Assembly: GCF_017355885.1 (NCBI RefSeq)
Contig: NZ_JAFEUU010000002.1
Location: forward strand, 248,001-312,000
Reading direction: 5' to 3'
DNA from: Sabulicella rubraurantiaca
GTDB lineage: Bacteria; Pseudomonadota; Alphaproteobacteria; Acetobacterales; Acetobacteraceae
Length of the DNA stretch: 64,000 nucleotides
This document shows, in pieces, positions 42,453 to 50,741 of this stretch. Both the position numbers and the translations under genes were made by a program. Under the pieces are notes generated by a model that ran no database searches, was not told where the DNA came from, and saw only the letters and a program-made list of their open reading frames with translations. Position 1 is the stretch's first letter. Each line of letters starts with the position of its first letter.

Positions 42453-42529
42453 GTCTCCGTAGCTCAGCAGGATAGAGCACCAGATTCCTAATCTGGGGGC
42501 CGTGGGTTCGAATCCCGCCGGGGACACCA
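42453..42529 (+). tRNA. tRNA-Arg (anticodon CCT), element attachment site
   Basis: This 77-base gene folds as a standard cloverleaf. The acceptor stem pairs GTCTCCG with CGGGGAC (one G-U), the D stem is GCTC/GAGC, the anticodon stem CCAGA/TCTGG encloses TTCCTAA (anticodon CCT, reading AGG), and the T arm carries GTTCGAATC. The 3' CCA is encoded. The last 17 bases are duplicated at 50421, showing that the gene is the integration site of the downstream element and was left intact. Confidence 0.97.
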
Positions 42530-42532
42530 TCT
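42513..42532. repeat. attL: left 20-bp direct repeat of the integrated element
   Basis: The sequence TCCCGCCGGGGACACCATCT covers the 3' end of tRNA-Arg(CCT) plus three downstream bases. An identical copy lies at 50421-50440. The bases on either side differ between the copies, so the repeat is exactly bounded. This is the pattern left by tyrosine-integrase recombination into a tRNA gene. Confidence 0.93.
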
Positions 42533-42630
42533 CCTAAAAACTGAGCAATTTCAGTCGATTACAGGGCAGGTTTGCGAATAGGTGTAGCCTTGCGTTACAC
42601 CCCTAGCGTTACATCTGGACCCGCTAGCCG

Positions 42631-44172
42631 ATGCCTCATCGCCTGCTCCGTCGCGGCCTCACTTGGTACGTTCGATATGCCGTGCCGAAGGACCGATGGC
42701 GCGACGTAGGGCGGATCGAGAAGGCGGCTGGAGGTGAGCGGAGAGAGATCGTCCGCACGCTGAGCACTTCCGATCATCGCGTGGCGGAAAGCCGTCGAGA
42801 CACCGCGGTCGCCGCCATCGTCTCTAACCTCAATCGCCGGCTGGAACACGCAGGCTTAGCCCCACTGACCGACTGGAAGGCGGATTGGGCTGACCGTGCC
42901 GAGTCCCGCCGTATCACTCTGGAGAGTGCCAGGGGCTTCCTGACGGAAAACGAGTTGATGGCGGGGTATGAGGAAGGCGAGACGCCACGCGACCGGGTGC
43001 TAGATGACATTCGAGAGGATGCCACGAAGCTGGCCCATCAGGTCGGCGCAGAGGCGGCTAATGCATTCTTTGCGGCTGCCACTGGAAAGTCCGCCAGCGT
43101 TGGCGTCGTGGCTGATGACTGGTTGGCGGACCTGGAGAAGCGTCGGACACGCCCGAAGGCACTGACGGGACACCGTGCGGCCTTGGCGCTGCTTGCGGCC
43201 TTCCTCAAAGAGCGCCACCACATGCCCAGCCTACGAGCTACGCCCTTCGCCCTGGTGACGCCTCGCGTTGCCGCCGAGTTTGTGGATTGGCGTGGCTCCC
43301 AGCCCTCCAGCAAGCGCGCTGGGAAGACCGTGAGTGCCGCAGCGATCCGCCGTGAGTTGTCCACCTTCCGGGGCGTATGGACCCGCGCACGGACCCGTGA
43401 GGAGACGACGCTGGACCCCTGGCGTGAGGTGTCTCCTCCCCTGCCCAGCCGCCATGCCGACACAGAGGACGATGACGCCACGAAGCGTCCCTACAGCCTG
43501 GAGGAACTGCTGGCCTTCTTTGCGGCTCCCCTGGAGGCATGGGCACCAAGCGGCAAGGGGTACGGCACCGCACTCCGGGATGCTGCCGCACTAGCGGTCC
43601 TAACCGGGTGCCGCATGAGCGAGGTGGCAGGGCTGGAGGTTCGCGACGTGTCAGCCGGGAGGGACGCCTTCACCATACGCCGCGGGAAGTCCGCCAACGC
43701 AGCGCGAGAGGTGCCCCTAGGAGAGACCGCACGGATGGTCCTGCGGGCGCGTATGGCGAAGCTGCCGAATGACGCCCCGCCCTCAAGCTCGCTGTGGCCC
43801 GAAGTTCCATCCGCCGAGAAGGGAAAACTCATGTCTGCCCGCTTCCCGGCCATCCGGCGTCGCATCATGCAGGACGCTGGGCTGGACGTTCCGCTCCACG
43901 CGACTGACTTTCACAGCTTCCGCCGGACGTTCGCGCAGTTCGGGCGAGATGCCATGAACGAAGGCGGGGGAGAGGTGACCGAGAGTTTGCTGGGGGCGCT
44001 CATGGGACACCGCGAGCGGACCTTGGCGCTGCGGACCTACGCACCGGGCGTGTTGCAACGGCACCTGGAGCGCGCCGTAGCGGCCATCGAACAGCAGGGC
44101 ATCCCGGCTGCGCTGCGAGAGGCACTGCGGGAACGGTATGGGGGGGCGCTAGTGGTTGAAGCACCAGGCTGA
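42631..44172 (+). CDS. Tyrosine-type site-specific integrase
   Basis: This 513-residue recombinase has an N-terminal arm and SAM-like domain (residues about 1-270) and a C-terminal catalytic domain. The catalytic set is complete: Arg328 in TGCRMSEVAGLEV, the beta-strand Lys near 353 in IRRGKSANA, His428-x-x-Arg431 in DFHSFRRTF, His460 in MGHRERTL and the nucleophile Tyr470 in LRTYAP. The opening RRGLTWYVRYAVP is the DUF6538-type N-terminus. It reads away from the tRNA attachment site and would catalyse integration and excision of the element. Start ATG 42631. Confidence 0.95.
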   Translation: MPHRLLRRGLTWYVRYAVPKDRWRDVGRIEKAAGGERREIVRTLSTSDHRVAESRRDTAVAAIVSNLNRRLEHAGLAPLTDWKADWADRAESRRITLESARGFLTENELMAGYEEGETPRDRVLDDIREDATKLAHQVGAEAANAFFAAATGKSASVGVVADDWLADLEKRRTRPKALTGHRAALALLAAFLKERHHMPSLRATPFALVTPRVAAEFVDWRGSQPSSKRAGKTVSAAAIRRELSTFRGVWTRARTREETTLDPWREVSPPLPSRHADTEDDDATKRPYSLEELLAFFAAPLEAWAPSGKGYGTALRDAAALAVLTGCRMSEVAGLEVRDVSAGRDAFTIRRGKSANAAREVPLGETARMVLRARMAKLPNDAPPSSSLWPEVPSAEKGKLMSARFPAIRRRIMQDAGLDVPLHATDFHSFRRTFAQFGRDAMNEGGGEVTESLLGALMGHRERTLALRTYAPGVLQRHLERAVAAIEQQGIPAALREALRERYGGALVVEAPG

Positions 44173-44246
44173 ACCTTCCGCCAGATGCTTTGACTCGGGT
44201 TCAGACCCAGGGTCCGCGGCGCCGCCACCACTAGCCCGTTATGAAC

Positions 44247-44687
44247 TTAAGGCCGGGAGCCTTGGCTTGCTTGTGCCGTCAGGAGGCGAAGCAAGAGTTT
44301 CTGAACATCCCGCCCCGCGAGTGGCTTGGGGATCAGCGGCCAGTCAGGAAAGCGCAACCGCGTGGCGTCAAGGCGCTCGCCGGTTGCGAGTACCGTTGGC
44401 ACGTTCCGGCGCCTGAGTTCCGCAAGCAACTCCCTATGGCCCTGCTCGTCAGCAATATCGGCATCCACGAGTGCCGCTGCGGGGTTGCGCTGCGCAATCT
44501 CTGTGAGGGCGTCTTTAACATGCAGGCAGGGACCGACTACCTCAAAGCCCTGCCCAACTAGGCGACTTGCGATGAAGGCTCCAATAACCGGCAAACCTTC
44601 CAATATAAGAATACGGCTTTCAGACAGTTCAACCCTGCCAGCCTCCAAGTCAAAGTCGCGCCACTGTGAGGACTGACTACCATCCAT
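44247..44687 (-). CDS. Orphan receiver-domain (response-regulator-like) protein
   Basis: This 146-residue protein consists of a single CheY-like receiver after about 25 residues. SRILILEGLPVIGAFIASRLV is beta1/alpha1, AALVDADIADEQGHREL holds the phosphoacceptor Asp, VPTVLATGE is beta4 and PLIPKPLAGRD gives the conserved Lys. The acidic pair usually found after beta1 is Glu-Gly here, so magnesium binding may be altered. No output domain or kinase gene is present in the element. ATG 44687 is chosen over GTG 44732 because GGAG is well placed. The role is unknown; it could intercept a host phosphorelay. Confidence 0.75.
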   Translation of the reverse strand: MDGSQSSQWRDFDLEAGRVELSESRILILEGLPVIGAFIASRLVGQGFEVVGPCLHVKDALTEIAQRNPAAALVDADIADEQGHRELLAELRRRNVPTVLATGERLDATRLRFPDWPLIPKPLAGRDVQKLLLRLLTAQASQGSRP

Positions 44688-44963
44688 AGGCTGAACTCCG
44701 TGATACCTAAGCGTATAAGTCGACTTCTCCACTAGGAACCTCAGCGTTCACACTTGAATGCAGAACTTCTGCGCGGCGTGATTGTTTTCAGAGCCTGCAA
44801 CTCATCGGCCAGAGGGTCAACCAGCCGGACAGCGTGGCGCTGGGCTTGCTGCATCGGTGTGTAGGTTTGATGGGAGAGCCTCCAGGCGCCCTAGCGCGAA
44901 TTGGCCAGCCTTCCCTAATTGCGGGGCGGGCAGCAGACTCACCTTTCAACCGGGAGCCACGCC

Positions 44964-45158
44964 ATGCTTGTCCTGTCGTTTCTCTGGTCGCTGACTTGGA
45001 GGCTGCTGCTGGCCGCCGGCCTCTACGCAGGTTGGATGGTCCTTGCTCTGACGAACGGGGCGACGAACGAAGAAGCCAACGCCTCTGTCGCCGTCGTGGT
45101 GCCCATCGCTTTGGCGGTGCTCTGGGCCGTGTGGACCTACCTCCCCAGAACGAGGTGA
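44964..45158 (+). CDS. Small two-helix membrane protein of the element
   Basis: This 64-residue protein begins at ATG 44964 with GGGAG upstream. Two hydrophobic helices are visible (MLVLSFLWSLTWRLLLAAGLYAGWMVLAL and VAVVVPIALAVLWAVWTYL), joined by the polar turn TNGATNEEANA. It ends with PRTR. No family is recognised. It is read opposite to the genes on both sides. Confidence 0.6.
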   Translation: MLVLSFLWSLTWRLLLAAGLYAGWMVLALTNGATNEEANASVAVVVPIALAVLWAVWTYLPRTR

Positions 45159-45358
45159 CGAACGGAAGATTGTGCTTCTGACTGGCGCCAATCACACCAC
45201 CCCTGGAAGCCCCTAGGACTCGCAAGGAGTCATTCAGGAAGCCGGGCAGTAGGATGGGCGCGGCGAGACATCACAGGGGCCTGTACGGGCTTCCTGCGGA
45301 CTCCTGGGGGCACGCCCAGGCTTTCCCTGGGCTGCTGGTTATGTCTGCTTCAGGCCGC

Positions 45359-45970
45359 TCACTGAAGATTCTGTGTGCCGCCGCTTTCAGGCAAGTGGCT
45401 GAACTGCATGGTCCTGCGCATCTCGTCCAGCACCTCCTTCTGCTGCCGAAGGCCCTCCCGCAATTCGTCTGCATCGGCTCGCAGGCGCTCAGCCTCGATG
45501 CGGCTGGCTTCCGCAAGCTGCCTGATCTCCTCGGTTAGGCGGCTCGCCTCCTCTCGGGCAATCCGCACGTCTTCGGCGGCCGAGCGTGCCGCCTCCGCTA
45601 TGCCACGGAGTTCCTCGCCAGACCGGCGTCCTTCCTCCGAGATGACGCGCTGCTCCTCTGAGACCATGCGCTCAGCTTCAGCCGTCCAATGCCGATTGGC
45701 TGCCGCCTCTCGACGGTGTTCCGCGCTCTCGCGCCTTGCTTCAGCTGCCTTCCGGTCAGCTTCCGCGCTCCCTAGTTCGTCGCGGTGGTCGTTCGCCATA
45801 GTGGCCTCCGTCCAGATCCGATTGGATGCGTCGTTCAGCCGCCGCGACGCGAAAACGGCCTTTGTACTGGCCTCCAGAAGCCGACGCGATTCGGCCAGGC
45901 GTTCCCCGGTGAGACGCAACCGAGCCTGGAGGGCGGTCAGCAAGGCATCCCTGTCGTCGCGGTCTGCCAT
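45359..45970 (-). CDS. Long coiled-coil protein of the element
   Basis: This 203-residue protein is almost entirely a charged alpha helix rich in Ala, Glu and Arg. Repeated short units such as AESRR, AEARRESAEHRREAA, SEEQRVISEEGRR and AEASRIEAERLRADADE recur at about seven-residue spacing. GGAGGTGAGA precedes ATG 45970, an excellent ribosome site, so it is very likely translated. It resembles no named family to me; coiled coils of this sort often act as scaffolds or partners. A 541-bp gene-free leader separates it from the polymerase-like gene on the same strand. Confidence 0.65.
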   Translation of the reverse strand: MADRDDRDALLTALQARLRLTGERLAESRRLLEASTKAVFASRRLNDASNRIWTEATMANDHRDELGSAEADRKAAEARRESAEHRREAAANRHWTAEAERMVSEEQRVISEEGRRSGEELRGIAEAARSAAEDVRIAREEASRLTEEIRQLAEASRIEAERLRADADELREGLRQQKEVLDEMRRTMQFSHLPESGGTQNLQ

Positions 45971-46512
45971 TCTCACCTCCACCCTTTGCGGCTTAAAGCC
46001 CAGAACGGGTCATCCAGTTTGCCGCACGTACCCGCCCCGTACGCCAACCCCTAGGTCTGACGTGGAGGCTTTACGGTGTTCGCCTGGCGCTAGGTGTCGG
46101 CACGAGGAGGAGCCCAAAAGGGCAGGTAGTGTGGCTACCCCCCGTTCGAGGCGGGGGGGGGCCTCAATCCGACTGAGCCTTTGCCCCGCACCTCGTCTGA
46201 GGGACTAGCCGCTCCCTCGAAGCAAGCGCATTGGGCACCCATGAGCCGACCGCGGGTCACGGCCTGCTGCTGGGCTTGGTGCCGTACCACCAGCTTACCG
46301 GGTGGCTCACTATCTCCCTACCTATGGGACAACTGGGCGATTACCCATAGAGCCCACTCGTAGTCGCTCTAAGCCTCCCCTTAAGCCGGTGCAGAGGGAT
46401 GGACTACTGAGAGTCCACACCCCTACGTCCTCTGGGAGTCACCTTCAGCTTACCCGAGGGCATGTGCAGAGGAGTGAACCACGGTAAGTCAAACCGTGGT
46501 CCTCCTGTTGGG
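45971..46512 (-). other. 541-bp hairpin-rich gene-free region inside the element
   Basis: No credible protein frame is present on either strand. Several perfect inverted repeats are visible: CTATGGG/CCCATAG (46322-46328, 46344-46350), ACCACGGT/ACCGTGGT (46478-46485, 46493-46500), GGACT/AGTCC (46401-46405, 46412-46416), and a C-run/G-run hairpin with a TTCGAGG loop at 46138-46158. It lies between two same-strand genes. It could be a structured leader, a non-coding RNA or a replication or transfer origin; I cannot choose between these. Confidence 0.5.
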
Positions 46513-47832
46513 CTAACAGTGGGTCTCCACCTTCACCGCCCCCTCGACACCCACGACGCGTCGGAAGGCGGACACCATGACCTCCTTCGCTGTCTCGACA
46601 TGGTGCATACCCACCGCCACCGCGTCGTGCTGGGGCAGAGCGACAACCCCAAGCCGCTGAAAGTCACCTAGGGCCAGCAGCAATGCGTCTGACTCCACAC
46701 GCTGGGCCTTTAGGTTGAACCCTGTACCAGCCACCCGGGCTACCGGTGGGAGTGCATCGAAGATGCGGCGCTGAATGTCCGGCCATCGGTCGCGAGAGGC
46801 GAAGTGAACCCGAGTGTCCTGCGGGAACCGGCTAAGGGCCTTGTAGGAGGAGAGCAGCGCGTTCACGACCATCTTCGCCCCCTCTCTGGTGCCTGGAAGC
46901 CCGGCGTAGAGATCGCCCTCCGGCGGCTCCTGACCAGCCATAGCGAAGGCAATGCGCGGCCAGGCGCTTGACCAGTCCACGAACGCTACAGGCGCCCCTT
47001 CGATCCGCAGGCGGGACAGCCGGTCATCCCGCTTCATGTTAATCCAGAAGCCCCCTGCCAGCCTGCCCCCCAGCGTAAAGTCCGGGGAGGAGGGCACACC
47101 GGGAGGCGCCCGGTTGAACACGCGGATCATGGAGCGGCGCCCCGTGTCCACCCAAGGCCCACCTGGTGCCACGTCCAAGGGCGCATCCCGTAGCCAAGCA
47201 TTGAGCGTCACCATTTGGCGCCGCATGGCGTAGGTGGCTGGGGTGTCCACATACTCGATGGACGGTCCGCGTTCCCCCTTGTTCGGATTGTAGCCCCGAA
47301 GGTGAATCACTTCGTCCCCCTCGACCGTCTCCACGTCCTCCAACGTGACGCCATGAGCCTCCACCAACGCGGCAAACAGGGGAGTTGGTGCCAGCGTCGA
47401 GAGACGCCCTGGACGGCCGGGAGTCCTCACGATGTACTCCCCAGCAACCAACAGATCGGCCGCGGTACGCAGCATCTCGGGTGGAAGGGGTGACGGCTCG
47501 TAACGTGAGACTTTGGCGGCCCGCTGGGGGTTCGCGAGAGACAGCGCCAAGCCCTCCAAGTAGCCACCCACAACGGTCGTCGCTAGGCCCGCGCCAAGTG
47601 CTCCCAGGACGCGCTTCCAGGACTCTACAGCGGTCTTCCGGCGCGCCCGCACCCTGCCCCCATGGCTGCGCTCCAGGGAGTCTAGAAGCGCCTCTAAGGC
47701 CGTCCTGAAGGCTTCTCCGCTGTCGCCTCCCAAGGTCCGGTGCGGAGAGAACCATGCCTCCCGGGGCGGCTCTATGGCAGGGCTGGCGATGGCTTCGTGG
47801 TGGTTACTAAGCACGGCTTCAGGTTCAAACAT
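46513..47832 (-). CDS. Element-encoded protein with family A polymerase-like palm motifs
   Basis: The protein has 439 residues from ATG 47832, with GGAGG 7 bp upstream. I recognise no annotated family, but three ordered motifs resemble those of family A DNA polymerases. Motif A-like VDWSSAWPRIAFAMAG (Asp286, Arg293) is followed by GDLYA, as DIH follows in PolA. Motif B-like TREGAKMVVNALL holds Arg316-x3-Lys320. Motif C-like LPQHDAVAV holds His402-Asp403. Before them come a helical region (residues about 40-130), a TPGRPGRLSTL segment, and FNRAP...GGRLAGGFWINM. Motif spacing is compressed relative to PolA, and no exonuclease domain is seen. It may be a replication or repair protein of the element; the polymerase link is my inference. 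Confidence 0.6.
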   Translation of the reverse strand: MFEPEAVLSNHHEAIASPAIEPPREAWFSPHRTLGGDSGEAFRTALEALLDSLERSHGGRVRARRKTAVESWKRVLGALGAGLATTVVGGYLEGLALSLANPQRAAKVSRYEPSPLPPEMLRTAADLLVAGEYIVRTPGRPGRLSTLAPTPLFAALVEAHGVTLEDVETVEGDEVIHLRGYNPNKGERGPSIEYVDTPATYAMRRQMVTLNAWLRDAPLDVAPGGPWVDTGRRSMIRVFNRAPPGVPSSPDFTLGGRLAGGFWINMKRDDRLSRLRIEGAPVAFVDWSSAWPRIAFAMAGQEPPEGDLYAGLPGTREGAKMVVNALLSSYKALSRFPQDTRVHFASRDRWPDIQRRIFDALPPVARVAGTGFNLKAQRVESDALLLALGDFQRLGVVALPQHDAVAVGMHHVETAKEVMVSAFRRVVGVEGAVKVETHC

Positions 47833-47972
47833 CCGGTGGCCTCCAAACGGCAAGAAGCCCGCGCGGGGTGAACCGGCGGGCTGGGCGGTTTCGTCATTAC
47901 CGTCTTGGAAATCGTCCTGGGTTGCGACCCTTCTGCCGTCGTTCGTAGCTTCTCTCTAAATGAGAATCGCTC

Positions 47973-48722
47973 TCAAGTAGGATACTTCCCGCAAGCTGCC
48001 TGTCCGTTCTGAGGGTTTTGCCCATCGGAAATGCGAGCAAGCACTCGGCGCACTGCTGTTGCGGTCCAGGAGCCATCCCTGGGCGTGGGCATTCCTTCGG
48101 CTTCTAGGGTCCGGGCGATCTCATGGAGGCTGGCACCCTGCTCTCGCAGAGCCAGCAAACGCGGGGCAAGCAGATGGGCATGGTTGGAGGCAGCCCGTTG
48201 CCGGACCTCTAGGCTGCGCTGGGCGCCCTGGAGGCGTTCTTTGGCAGAGGGTGGACGTTGGCCCTCCCTAAGCCCTCCAAGCTTCTTCCCGCGTGTCTTA
48301 GCGGCTGCCAGAGCGGCCTTAGTGCGCGCGGAGACGGCCCGTGCTTCCTCCTCCGCGACCAGCGCCATGACGCCCACTGTGAGGCGGTTCGCGTGAGGCA
48401 TGTCCGCCGCAACGAAGTCCACTTCGGCTTTCTGAAGACCTAGCAGGAAGTGAGCATCGCGCGACAGGCGGTCCAGCTTGGCGATAAGCAGGGTGGCACC
48501 CGTAGCCCGACACTTTGCCAACGCCTTGTCCAACTGGGGGCGTGACGTCGTGCGACCGCTCTCGACCTCCACAAAGACCGGGAGGAGGAGGTGCCCGCCG
48601 TGGCTGCTCAGATGGTTGCGGATGGCCTCCTGCTGGGCCTCCAGGCCGAGACCGCTTCGTCCCTGCTTCGCGGTGCTGACGCGGGCATAGGCGACGAATA
48701 GGCGGGGCATTGAGGCGGCCAT
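47973..48722 (-). CDS. Serine recombinase (resolvase/invertase family)
   Basis: This 249-residue protein has the resolvase catalytic domain. The nucleophile Ser16 is in AYARVSTAKQ, the regulatory stretch GLGLEAQQEAI follows, LIAKLDRLSRDAHFL holds the active-site Arg cluster, and VGVMALVAEEEARAVSARTKAAL forms the long helix. A C-terminal helix-turn-helix (LREQGASLHEIARTLEAEGM) completes it. It could resolve dimers, invert DNA or assist excision. ATG 48722 is chosen because AGGAG lies 6 bp upstream; upstream ATG or GTG codons lack this. Confidence 0.9.
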   Translation of the reverse strand: MAASMPRLFVAYARVSTAKQGRSGLGLEAQQEAIRNHLSSHGGHLLLPVFVEVESGRTTSRPQLDKALAKCRATGATLLIAKLDRLSRDAHFLLGLQKAEVDFVAADMPHANRLTVGVMALVAEEEARAVSARTKAALAAAKTRGKKLGGLREGQRPPSAKERLQGAQRSLEVRQRAASNHAHLLAPRLLALREQGASLHEIARTLEAEGMPTPRDGSWTATAVRRVLARISDGQNPQNGQAACGKYPT

Positions 48723-48951
48723 CAGCGACTCCTGGGTTCCAATTATGACACCCTGAGTCCCCGCAACATACCATGTCAATAGCAGTCAACGAACATTGAC
48801 ACTACCTGACAAGGTCTGGAGGCAGGCAGACGGACCCCACACTCCGCTTCAGCATGACTACTTCTGGAAGTTGTAATTCTCAATCCTGAGTTGTAGGACC
48901 GCCCTCAGCTCGAAAAGACGGCTTTACGAAGGCAGAGGAACCCGCAGCCCA

Positions 48952-49200
48952 GTGGCACGTTTGGTCAACCTTAACAGCCGCCCTGTTTTCGCGCTCAGAT
49001 CTGCTTTGCGGGCCTTAGCCTCCCTCGTTTGGGTCATTCTATTGCGTTTCCTAGCTGGCTCAGCACTGCTCAGCTTCCTAGCCCTAGCTTATCTCGCAAA
49101 GCACCTACTCGGGATCGATGTTGTCCCTGGAGTGGACATGGTCCCAGACGAAGATATCGAGGCATTAATTGAGGGGCTGTTCTCTCTGATAGGCCTCTGA
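48952..49200 (+). CDS. Possible small membrane protein
   Basis: An 82-codon frame starts at GTG 48952 with only a weak upstream purine stretch. It encodes a hydrophobic helix pair (ALRALASLVWVILLRFLAGSALLSFLALAYLAKHLL) followed by an acidic tail (VPGVDMVPDEDIEALIEGLFSLIGL). The amphipathic, acidic C-terminus reads like a genuine protein, but no family or neighbour supports it. Confidence 0.4.
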   Translation: MARLVNLNSRPVFALRSALRALASLVWVILLRFLAGSALLSFLALAYLAKHLLGIDVVPGVDMVPDEDIEALIEGLFSLIGL

Positions 49201-49723
49201 GGCTGCTACGGACCTGGGTACAGCTTTTTTGGGGTGAATGCCTACTTCGGCAAGCCGGACCCCAATTATGTCTTCAATAAAGGAGGAGACGCTGGTTGCG
49301 CCCTACTGACCTTGCTGCACACCTCTCCCAGCCCGCCGCAGGACGTCACGAAGCCAGCCAACAGACCCCCACCCGTCAAAGCCAATCGACTTCAAAAAAA
49401 GGGTTAAAGGTTGTTCTTGTTGTTCAGACCCCCCGCCCCCTTTCAGAACACTAGGGCAAACAGGGGGGTACGTTTTGAAGTACCGGGGGATTCAGCCGCG
49501 GGGCACCACTCGCCCGCCTCGCCGCTTATCTAAGGCCGCTGGTGGCCGGCCACGAACGCGCAGACGAATAAGCGGCCCTGGAGATGGTGGCGGTGTGACA
49601 GCCTTCTAGCGGATGAAACCGGACGCTTAATACCCACCAGACCATGGCTGCTCTCGCCCCTTGTCGGCGCCTCCGCCTTGCGGCCCTGGGCTTTCCGTCA
49701 GCGAAGCGGTGGTTATCCTTGCA
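49201..49723. other. Gene-free 520-bp region of the element
   Basis: I find no convincing gene. The stretch includes an AT-richer patch around 49386-49425 with an A7 run and TTGTT repeats, followed by C- and G-runs (49429-49442, 49463-49469) and a short GTAC...GTAC repeat at 49468-49483. Such composition could mark an origin or promoter region, but nothing decisive is visible. Confidence 0.35.
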
Positions 49724-50158
49724 TCACGCGCGAGGTGCCGCAGCTTCGTAGACCGTGGCGTCCTCCGGCAGGATCACCCAGGACTGCTTGCTCCGCGTGA
49801 ACAGATGCAGTGTCGGCCGCAACCACGACGTGTCGTCCAGCGTGCCGCCGCGGACGTGGCGGATGGAGCCCGGCGGTTCCGTTCCGGGCTTCACGCCGCC
49901 GCAAAGCCAGACCCCGCAGTCTGGGCACACCCACCGCGTTTTGGCGCGCCCGCTCTCGGTGACGCCGCCCGGCACCGGCCGTAGTTCCTTCCCAGTCACC
50001 CGGAACGCCTCGCCCGGAACCGAGACGCCGATCGAAAACGCACTGGTCGTCACGCGCTGGCAGTCAGTGCAGTGGCAGGCGTACACGCGGGTCGGCGCGT
50101 GCGTGATCTCGTAGCGAACGGCCCCGCACACGCAGCCGCCTGTCATTGGCAGTTTCAC
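49724..50158 (-). CDS. GFA family protein (glutathione-dependent formaldehyde-activating-like)
   Basis: This 144-residue protein has the GFA zinc sites: GGCVCGAVRYEI, ACHCTDCQRVT and CPDCGVWL, giving seven cysteines in the family's arrangement. The SIGVSVPGEAFRVTG segment is also typical. Members bind zinc and are annotated as S-hydroxymethylglutathione synthase or carbon-sulfur lyases, mostly without proof. GTG 50158 is chosen because GGAG lies 7 bp upstream; ATG 50146 is the alternative. It is the last gene before the right attachment repeat. Confidence 0.88.
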   Translation of the reverse strand: MKLPMTGGCVCGAVRYEITHAPTRVYACHCTDCQRVTTSAFSIGVSVPGEAFRVTGKELRPVPGGVTESGRAKTRWVCPDCGVWLCGGVKPGTEPPGSIRHVRGGTLDDTSWLRPTLHLFTRSKQSWVILPEDATVYEAAAPRA

Positions 50159-50741
50159 GGGTCGGCTCCTCTTGCGCAGGCCGCATCTCATCCGTGGTGA
50201 CCTGAAAAATCAACGGCTCAAGACCCGGTCCCCACCCAGACCCAACTTAAGCCGTGGTCTGGCTGCTCATCGTTTTGCTATTCATCGCGCACCGCGCAGT
50301 GGCGGCTTATGAGAAGGGGCGCAGGACTTAGCGGTAGTAACGCAGCGGTACAAGGCCAGCGTTACAGATAACCAATTGATATTGTTTACTTTTATCCCAA
50401 ACCTTACCTCTATCGTCCCCTCCCGCCGGGGACACCATCTTCAAAGACTAAAAGCATTGGTGAACCGGCAGGTTCTTTGGAGTTGCAGCGGATTCGATGC
50501 TGCCCTGCCCTTGCGTGGCCAGCAATTGCGCCTGAGAGGATCAGCGACGGCCGACAAGCAGCCGGGTCACCCATCCAAGGCACGATCGCCACCTCTTGTG
50601 TCAGGGGGTGACGGATTTCTTTACGTCGCATAGCAACGTTGGCCGTCTCCGCGTCGCAAGTCTTTGACGCGCCACAAGAAATCGCTCCGGCACAGATGTT
50701 GCTGAGAGGCGAAGTAAAGTGGCGAAGGGGACCCTGGCTCA
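50159..50741. other. Gene-free junction region containing attR
   Basis: No gene is supported between the GFA gene and the MerR gene. The right attachment repeat lies at 50421-50440, so the left part belongs to the element and the right part to the original chromosome. Weakly AT-rich sequence surrounds 50370-50410. Small frames here have no ribosome site or recognisable product. Confidence 0.5.
50421..50440. repeat. attR: right 20-bp direct repeat of the integrated element
   Basis: TCCCGCCGGGGACACCATCT is identical to the tRNA-Arg 3' end at 42513-42532. Upstream of the repeat no tRNA body is present, confirming that this is the displaced copy and not a second gene. Flanking bases on both sides differ from those at attL. 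Confidence 0.93.

Follow-up and report, generated by a model that had tools for sequence, protein, structure and literature searches.

A small element integrated in a tRNA-Arg gene of the alphaproteobacterium Sabulicella rubraurantiaca encodes a 439-residue polymerase that has a family A palm with its catalytic set intact, belongs to the divPolA2 family, and is accompanied by a tyrosine integrase in this and in every one of the other small elements that could be delimited in bacterial tRNA genes. The reading preferred here, to which a probability of about one half is given, is that the polymerase is probably active and copies its element after excision; catalysis, a DNA product and replication are what we infer beyond the computed fold, family and element boundaries. 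The DNA analysed (the window) is a stretch of 64,000 nt from contig NZ_JAFEUU010000002.1 (positions 248,001 to 312,000), and coordinates are counted from its first letter (Table 1).

Table 1. Features of the polymerase gene and of the element that carries it
Feature	Position in window	Strand	Basis or remark
Integrative element, 7.9 kb	42513..50440	.	bounded by att repeats
tRNA-Arg(CCT), integration site	42453..42529	+	ARAGORN
attL, 20-nt core at tRNA 3' end, TCCCGCCGGGGACACCATCT	42513..42532	+	exact repeat
Tyrosine integrase, DUF6538-like N terminus	42631..44172	+	PF00589 E 4.7e-13; reads away from tRNA
ORF with weak response-regulator receiver match, inside element	44247-44732		
divPolA2-family polymerase gene	46513..47832	-	ORF, 439 aa; phrog_4756 match
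Palm/fingers region, ~residues 173-439	46516..47316	-	VIA-align, mostly from ~residue 173 to C terminus
Motif C, H402-D403	46624..46629	-	99%/100% conserved; aligned with PolA motif C by hhalign
O-helix R316-x3-K320 (motif B)	46873..46887	-	99%/100% conserved; helix 316-328 in model
D307-x-Y309 (PolA DIH; T7-type RNAP DIY)	46906..46914	-	97%/99% conserved; DIY in six T7-type RNAPs
Trp291, steric-gate position (motif A +5)	46960..46962	-	Glu in PolA; His in 73% of divPolA2-family homologues
Motif A catalytic Asp286	46975..46977	-	invariant, n=176; aligned with Taq motif A
GGR motif, residues 255-257 (equivalent of PolA TxTGR, RNAP DxxGR)	47062..47070	-	G256, R257 invariant, n=176
N-terminal domain, ~residues 25-215, in place of thumb and exonuclease	47188..47760	-	AlphaFold2 of this part alone
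Serine recombinase (resolvase)	47973..48779	-	PF00239 E 1.3e-26; directly upstream of polymerase, same strand
GFA-family (glutathione-dependent formaldehyde-activating type) enzyme, cargo	49724-50191		
attR, exact copy of 20-nt core	50421..50440	+	exact repeat

The gene and its conserved motifs

The open reading frame runs on the minus strand from an ATG at 47832 to a stop at 46513; a TTG in the same frame, at 47853, is an alternative start that would give 446 residues. An initial annotation, made from the letters of the window, had pointed to segments resembling the palm motifs of family A enzymes, and each of them was found in the translation at the residues it had named: VDWSSAWPRIAFAMAG with D286, GDLYA with D307/Y309, TREGAKMVVNALL with R316/K320 and LPQHDAVAV with H402/D403. 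That these are not chance matches is argued by their conservation in 176 aligned homologues, among which G256, R257, R271, D286, K320 and D403 are invariant, H402, R316 and Y309 are 99% conserved and D307 is 97% conserved. Identity to the query in this alignment is mostly 15-45%, and retention of the catalytic residues at such low identity implies strong selection on the catalytic set; the palm is thus being selected rather than decaying. The proposed catalytic trio of PolA type, Asp286, Lys320 and Asp403, accordingly holds up, and neither aspartate varies in any homologue aligned. Two more motifs of the plan common to family A and single-subunit polymerases, GGR at residues 255-257 and R271, had been overlooked.

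The relationship to PolA is within reach of profile methods. The best match of a ten-member family profile among all PDB sequences is Taq Pol I (E 0.0036), the GR motif and motifs A and C being aligned in register, and comparison of the family with 15 bacterial PolA sequences by hhalign, the HMM-HMM comparison that the annotation had suggested, aligns 200 columns (E 3e-5, probability 73). Neither the query nor nine homologues matched anything in Pfam or NCBIfam, DNA_pol_A (PF00476) being absent at E values up to 1, and the sole PHROGs match of the query is to a family of unknown function.

The fold

The AlphaFold2 model (95 sequences) has a mean pLDDT of 89 and a pTM of 0.87. Structures of DNA polymerase I type head the list of its PDB matches by Foldseek (E 8.9e-7), and the Z-scores from VIA-align are 11.9 over 230 residues with apPOL, 11.8 with Bst, 11.6 with Taq and 11.2 with T7 DNA polymerase. 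The family A palm that had been conjectured from motifs is therefore present in the predicted fold, and the model and the PDB alignments bear out the further supposition that the 439-residue protein has no exonuclease domain. No T7-type RNA polymerase is among the PDB matches listed by Foldseek and VIA-align, a result with which kinship to those enzymes remains compatible.

Most of the PDB alignments begin at about residue 173; what precedes is a globular domain that replaces the thumb and folds on its own when modelled alone (pLDDT 85, pTM 0.75). A Foldseek search with this domain gave nothing significant, its leading rows being mainly MarR-type regulators with E values of about 0.16 and above, and its best VIA Z-score, 7.0, is with eS19, the winged helices of Fur and LmrR scoring lower. 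With low confidence the modelled domain may be called winged-helix-like; given a Foldseek result short of significance and a best Z of 7.0, the term describes the shape and does not establish homology.

An active site between two kinds of polymerase

Three positions bear on the choice of substrate in Taq, Klenow and the T7 enzymes: motif A +5, the eighth residue after the O-helix lysine, and the residue that follows the His-Asp of motif C. At the first, the steric-gate Glu is absent, with Trp in the query, His in 128 of the 176 homologues and H, N, F or W as the substitutes overall. At the second, the O-helix Tyr has given way to Ser (S328) in the query and to Asn in 123 of 176, Tyr being kept in 2 of 176. 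At the third, the Glu of the PolA set is Ala in the query (HDA) and Ser in 80% of members (HDS). To this is added DxY in place of the PolA DIH, the six T7-type RNA polymerases compared having DIY. Judged by these residues, the layout of the active site is between the DNA and the RNA polymerase kinds, and as both the steric-gate Glu and the O-helix Tyr of DNA polymerases are absent, DNA as the product is not assured. The description 'PolA-type' thus stands for the fold, meaning palm and catalytic set, but does not extend to substrate choice, W291 being there instead of Glu and S328 instead of Tyr.

Could divPolA2 then be a single-subunit RNA polymerase, or an RNA primase, that transcribes genes of the element or phage, with the winged-helix-like domain reading the promoter? 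Like the T7-type enzymes (PF00940), the family has DxY, a GR motif, no Glu gate and, in most members though not in the query, HDS; hhalign aligns the two around motif C (82 columns, E 7e-5), and two of ten members weakly match phrog_414, an RNA polymerase family (E 0.1). But Tyr639, which in T7 RNA polymerase selects ribose, has Asn as its equivalent in most members and S328 in the query, the protein is half the size with a different N domain, and the profile match is confined to motif C whereas that with PolA covers the whole palm. The leading PDB matches, by fold and by sequence, are moreover all DNA polymerases. On balance an RNA polymerase is rather unlikely, though it is a reading that the authors who named the family had already considered (PMC11348598). 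Bacterial Pol I (PF00476) for its part shares motifs A, B and C, the GR motif and the fold with divPolA2, which differs in being without exonuclease, recognised thumb or Glu gate, in having DxY and not DIH and HDS, HDA or HDG and not HDE, and in the missing Pfam match.

A family known from phages

divPolA2 comes from a 2024 study, which reported it in phages only (Yutin et al. 2024, Virol J 21:200, PMC11348598). Its carriers, barbaviruses and others, sometimes have two or three paralogues and already encode another replicative polymerase; its N domain, without detectable relatives, is a non-homologous replacement of thumb and exonuclease, and the role suggested was that of a DNA polymerase for repair or else of an RNA polymerase (PMC11348598). 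The element polymerase is, on its sequence matches, a member of this family: an HMM built without phage sequences matches AUR84708, the divPolA2 representative that had been modelled, with 121 bits over residues 20-423 of 430, and ORF100 of Vibrio phage ICP1 with 140 bits. Since AUR84708 is matched over nearly its full length, the minimal polymerase that the initial annotation had taken for a new type is one already described. The name divPolA2 was met only in that paper and its preprint, in a literature search of incomplete coverage, and no published activity measurement was found for any member of the family.

What the element protein shares with the phage family is near-full-length homology, a palm without exonuclease, an unrelated N domain and its standing as an extra polymerase beside a regular one: the host genome carries its own polA (at C36), so the element-borne enzyme is an additional one. 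The published family is phage-only, whereas here it sits beside a tyrosine integrase in bacterial elements integrated in tRNA genes. That setting appears to be new, and the new content is this bacterial context together with the active-site layout.

How widely relatives are found depends on the query. The window protein as sole query found them in 6 of 100 related genomes, a count that includes its own, and a single-protein scan of species-genome contigs gave no match, as did a scan of viral contigs with one alphaproteobacterial protein. A ten-member alignment matched 30 of the 385 genomes from the class, 24 of the 398 from the phylum and 27 of the 299 from the order, and scans with one subset alignment gave 358 stretches in the species-genome collection and 48 loci in viral contigs. 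In a tree of 126 members, some of whose terminal branches are long and of unsure placement, phage and bacterial sequences are interleaved (11 label changes, at least 8 of them forced by supported branches), with the window protein in a purely bacterial clade of 11.

Near the phage copies there are PolA-like and DnaB-like genes, so divPolA2 is not the sole polymerase of these phages, and with another replicative polymerase in its phage carriers the function of divPolA2 need not be bulk replication. Three phage contigs of 88-93 kb from IMG/VR have two copies each (L091+L105, L100+L113 and L094+L114). The ICP1 member, ORF100 (L235:5536-7203, 555 aa), is annotated as a conserved hypothetical protein. 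Weak homologues of 452 residues in four 1.4 Mb genomes of one alphaproteobacterial family (L035:940-2295, L036:1396-2751, L037:1396-2751 and L038:931-2286) have lost the GR, R-x3-K and HD motifs and are possibly an inactivated or repurposed derivative.

The element in tRNA-Arg

'Element protein', as the gene product had been called, proved apt: the gene lies within an att-bounded element of 7.9 kb that also encodes a tyrosine integrase. Apart from the genes in Table 1 the element has small ORFs, and nothing convincing by way of defence cargo was seen in it. Five relatives within the genus have the left flank and the orthologous tRNA-Arg conserved, followed by downstream sequences that differ and have no homology to the window element, which is thus a variable insertion; a clean empty site with the two flanks joined was not obtained from these five. 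In all of them (L261, L262, L263, L264 and L266) the tRNA-Arg(CCT) locus lies by a helicase gene, and this locus may be an integration hot spot. On the inner side of each att site, at 42592-42613 and 50345-50366, are imperfect subterminal repeats with GCGTTACA, possible arm-binding sites of the integrase.

A class of tRNA-integrated elements

Of the bacterial divPolA2 loci, 37 are flanked by 4.5 kb or more on either side; a tyrosine integrase lies within 4.5 kb at 30 of them and a serine recombinase at 13. With about 2 integrases per Mb, as estimated from 31 genomes of the class, some 2.5% of such neighbourhoods (a proportion of about 0.025) would hold an integrase by chance. On viral contigs the counts are one of 25 loci for each type of recombinase. 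A tRNA gene is present at 26 of 31 loci scanned, and 20 of these 26 have a second, exact copy of its 3' end (17-58 nt), which with the window gives 21 delimited elements, of 4.8-10.6 kb, in genes for tRNA-Cys, Ser, Ala, Val, Met, Tyr, Leu, Pro and Arg. Integrase and divPolA2 are in all 21 and a serine recombinase in 10, the other genes being variable. Having served to find the loci, the polymerase is constant by construction; no such bias underlies the association with integrases, tRNA sites and exact repeats. Other clusters shared among elements seem to be shadows antisense to the integrase and polymerase reading frames, except for one, present in four elements, which is apparently a type III restriction-modification gene.

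Tyrosine recombination requires no DNA synthesis, a point that, with the host's own supply of Pol I and the location of phage members mostly away from integrases, tells against divPolA2 being a repair or gap-filling polymerase of integration, excision or recombination and not an element replicase. The strong integrase association and the frequency of serine recombinases would fit such a role, as would the variable neighbourhoods and the one to three paralogues in phages that have other replicative polymerases (PMC11348598); even so, we regard it as unlikely.

Restriction-modification or other predicted defence genes are often part of the cargo in the elements examined, which includes nSTAND3-Mrr (PDC-S73), type I, type IIG and type III restriction-modification and an ABC-3C/DUF2326 pair. 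One small element (L195:9281-12142) has an ABC-3C-type pair made up of a CTD10 protein and a DUF2326 protein (PDC-M68B). With such company, might the polymerase be itself a defence protein, for instance a polymerase-based anti-phage effector in the manner of the defence reverse transcriptases? This is highly improbable, because the polymerase is constant where the defence cargo varies, no PADLOC-DB model is matched by the query or nine homologues, and phages, ICP1 with its ORF100 included, carry divPolA2 themselves.

What might the polymerase do?

The evidence favours a part for the polymerase in maintaining the element, most likely through nucleic-acid synthesis that is specific to the element and follows its excision. 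In the scheme envisaged, the integrase would excise the element at the att repeats, and the N-terminal winged-helix-like domain would recognise element DNA and so give specificity. In the palm, D286 and D403 would act with two metals, R316 and K320 of the O-helix would bind the triphosphate, and the GR arginine would hold the template-primer. The extrachromosomal element might then be copied, whether for replication, priming or gap filling, before it is re-integrated or transferred.

Pipolins are integrative elements that have att repeats at a tRNA gene and encode recombinases and a primer-independent family B polymerase of their own (PMC7385651). They are the nearest functional analogy for the divPolA2 elements, with which they have in common the tRNA site, att direct repeats, a recombinase, a hallmark polymerase and flexible cargo. 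The differences are that pipolins have piPolB where the divPolA2 elements have a family A fold, so that by the piPolB criterion these fall outside the pipolins, and that the divPolA2 elements are small (4.8-10.6 kb for the 21 found) and occupy many different tRNA genes. In the smallest divPolA2 elements a look that was not exhaustive identified no primase, helicase or origin. With no primase recognised there and a sugar gate that is not PolA-like, a primer-free start is worth considering. A bolder form of the replicative reading, possible but doubtful, would make the elements a new class of self-synthesising carriers of defence genes that integrate in tRNA genes, the family A counterpart of pipolins, in which divPolA2 would be a primer-independent primase-polymerase with His/Asn for the Glu/Tyr sugar gate, guided by its winged-helix-like domain.

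Perspective

That many alphaproteobacteria have divPolA2 next to an integrase on a small element provides a tractable setting for a family known from phages. A minimal version, some 5 kb long and reduced to a single integrase gene, the polymerase gene and a pair of att sites, would be amenable to a laboratory host, and the ICP1 homologue, ORF100, is a second experimental route to the family. For the wider biology of mobile elements, what emerges suggests that the pairing of a polymerase with an integrase extends beyond the enzymes of family B, and for the enzymes themselves it suggests one active-site layout that is intermediate between those of DNA and RNA polymerases.
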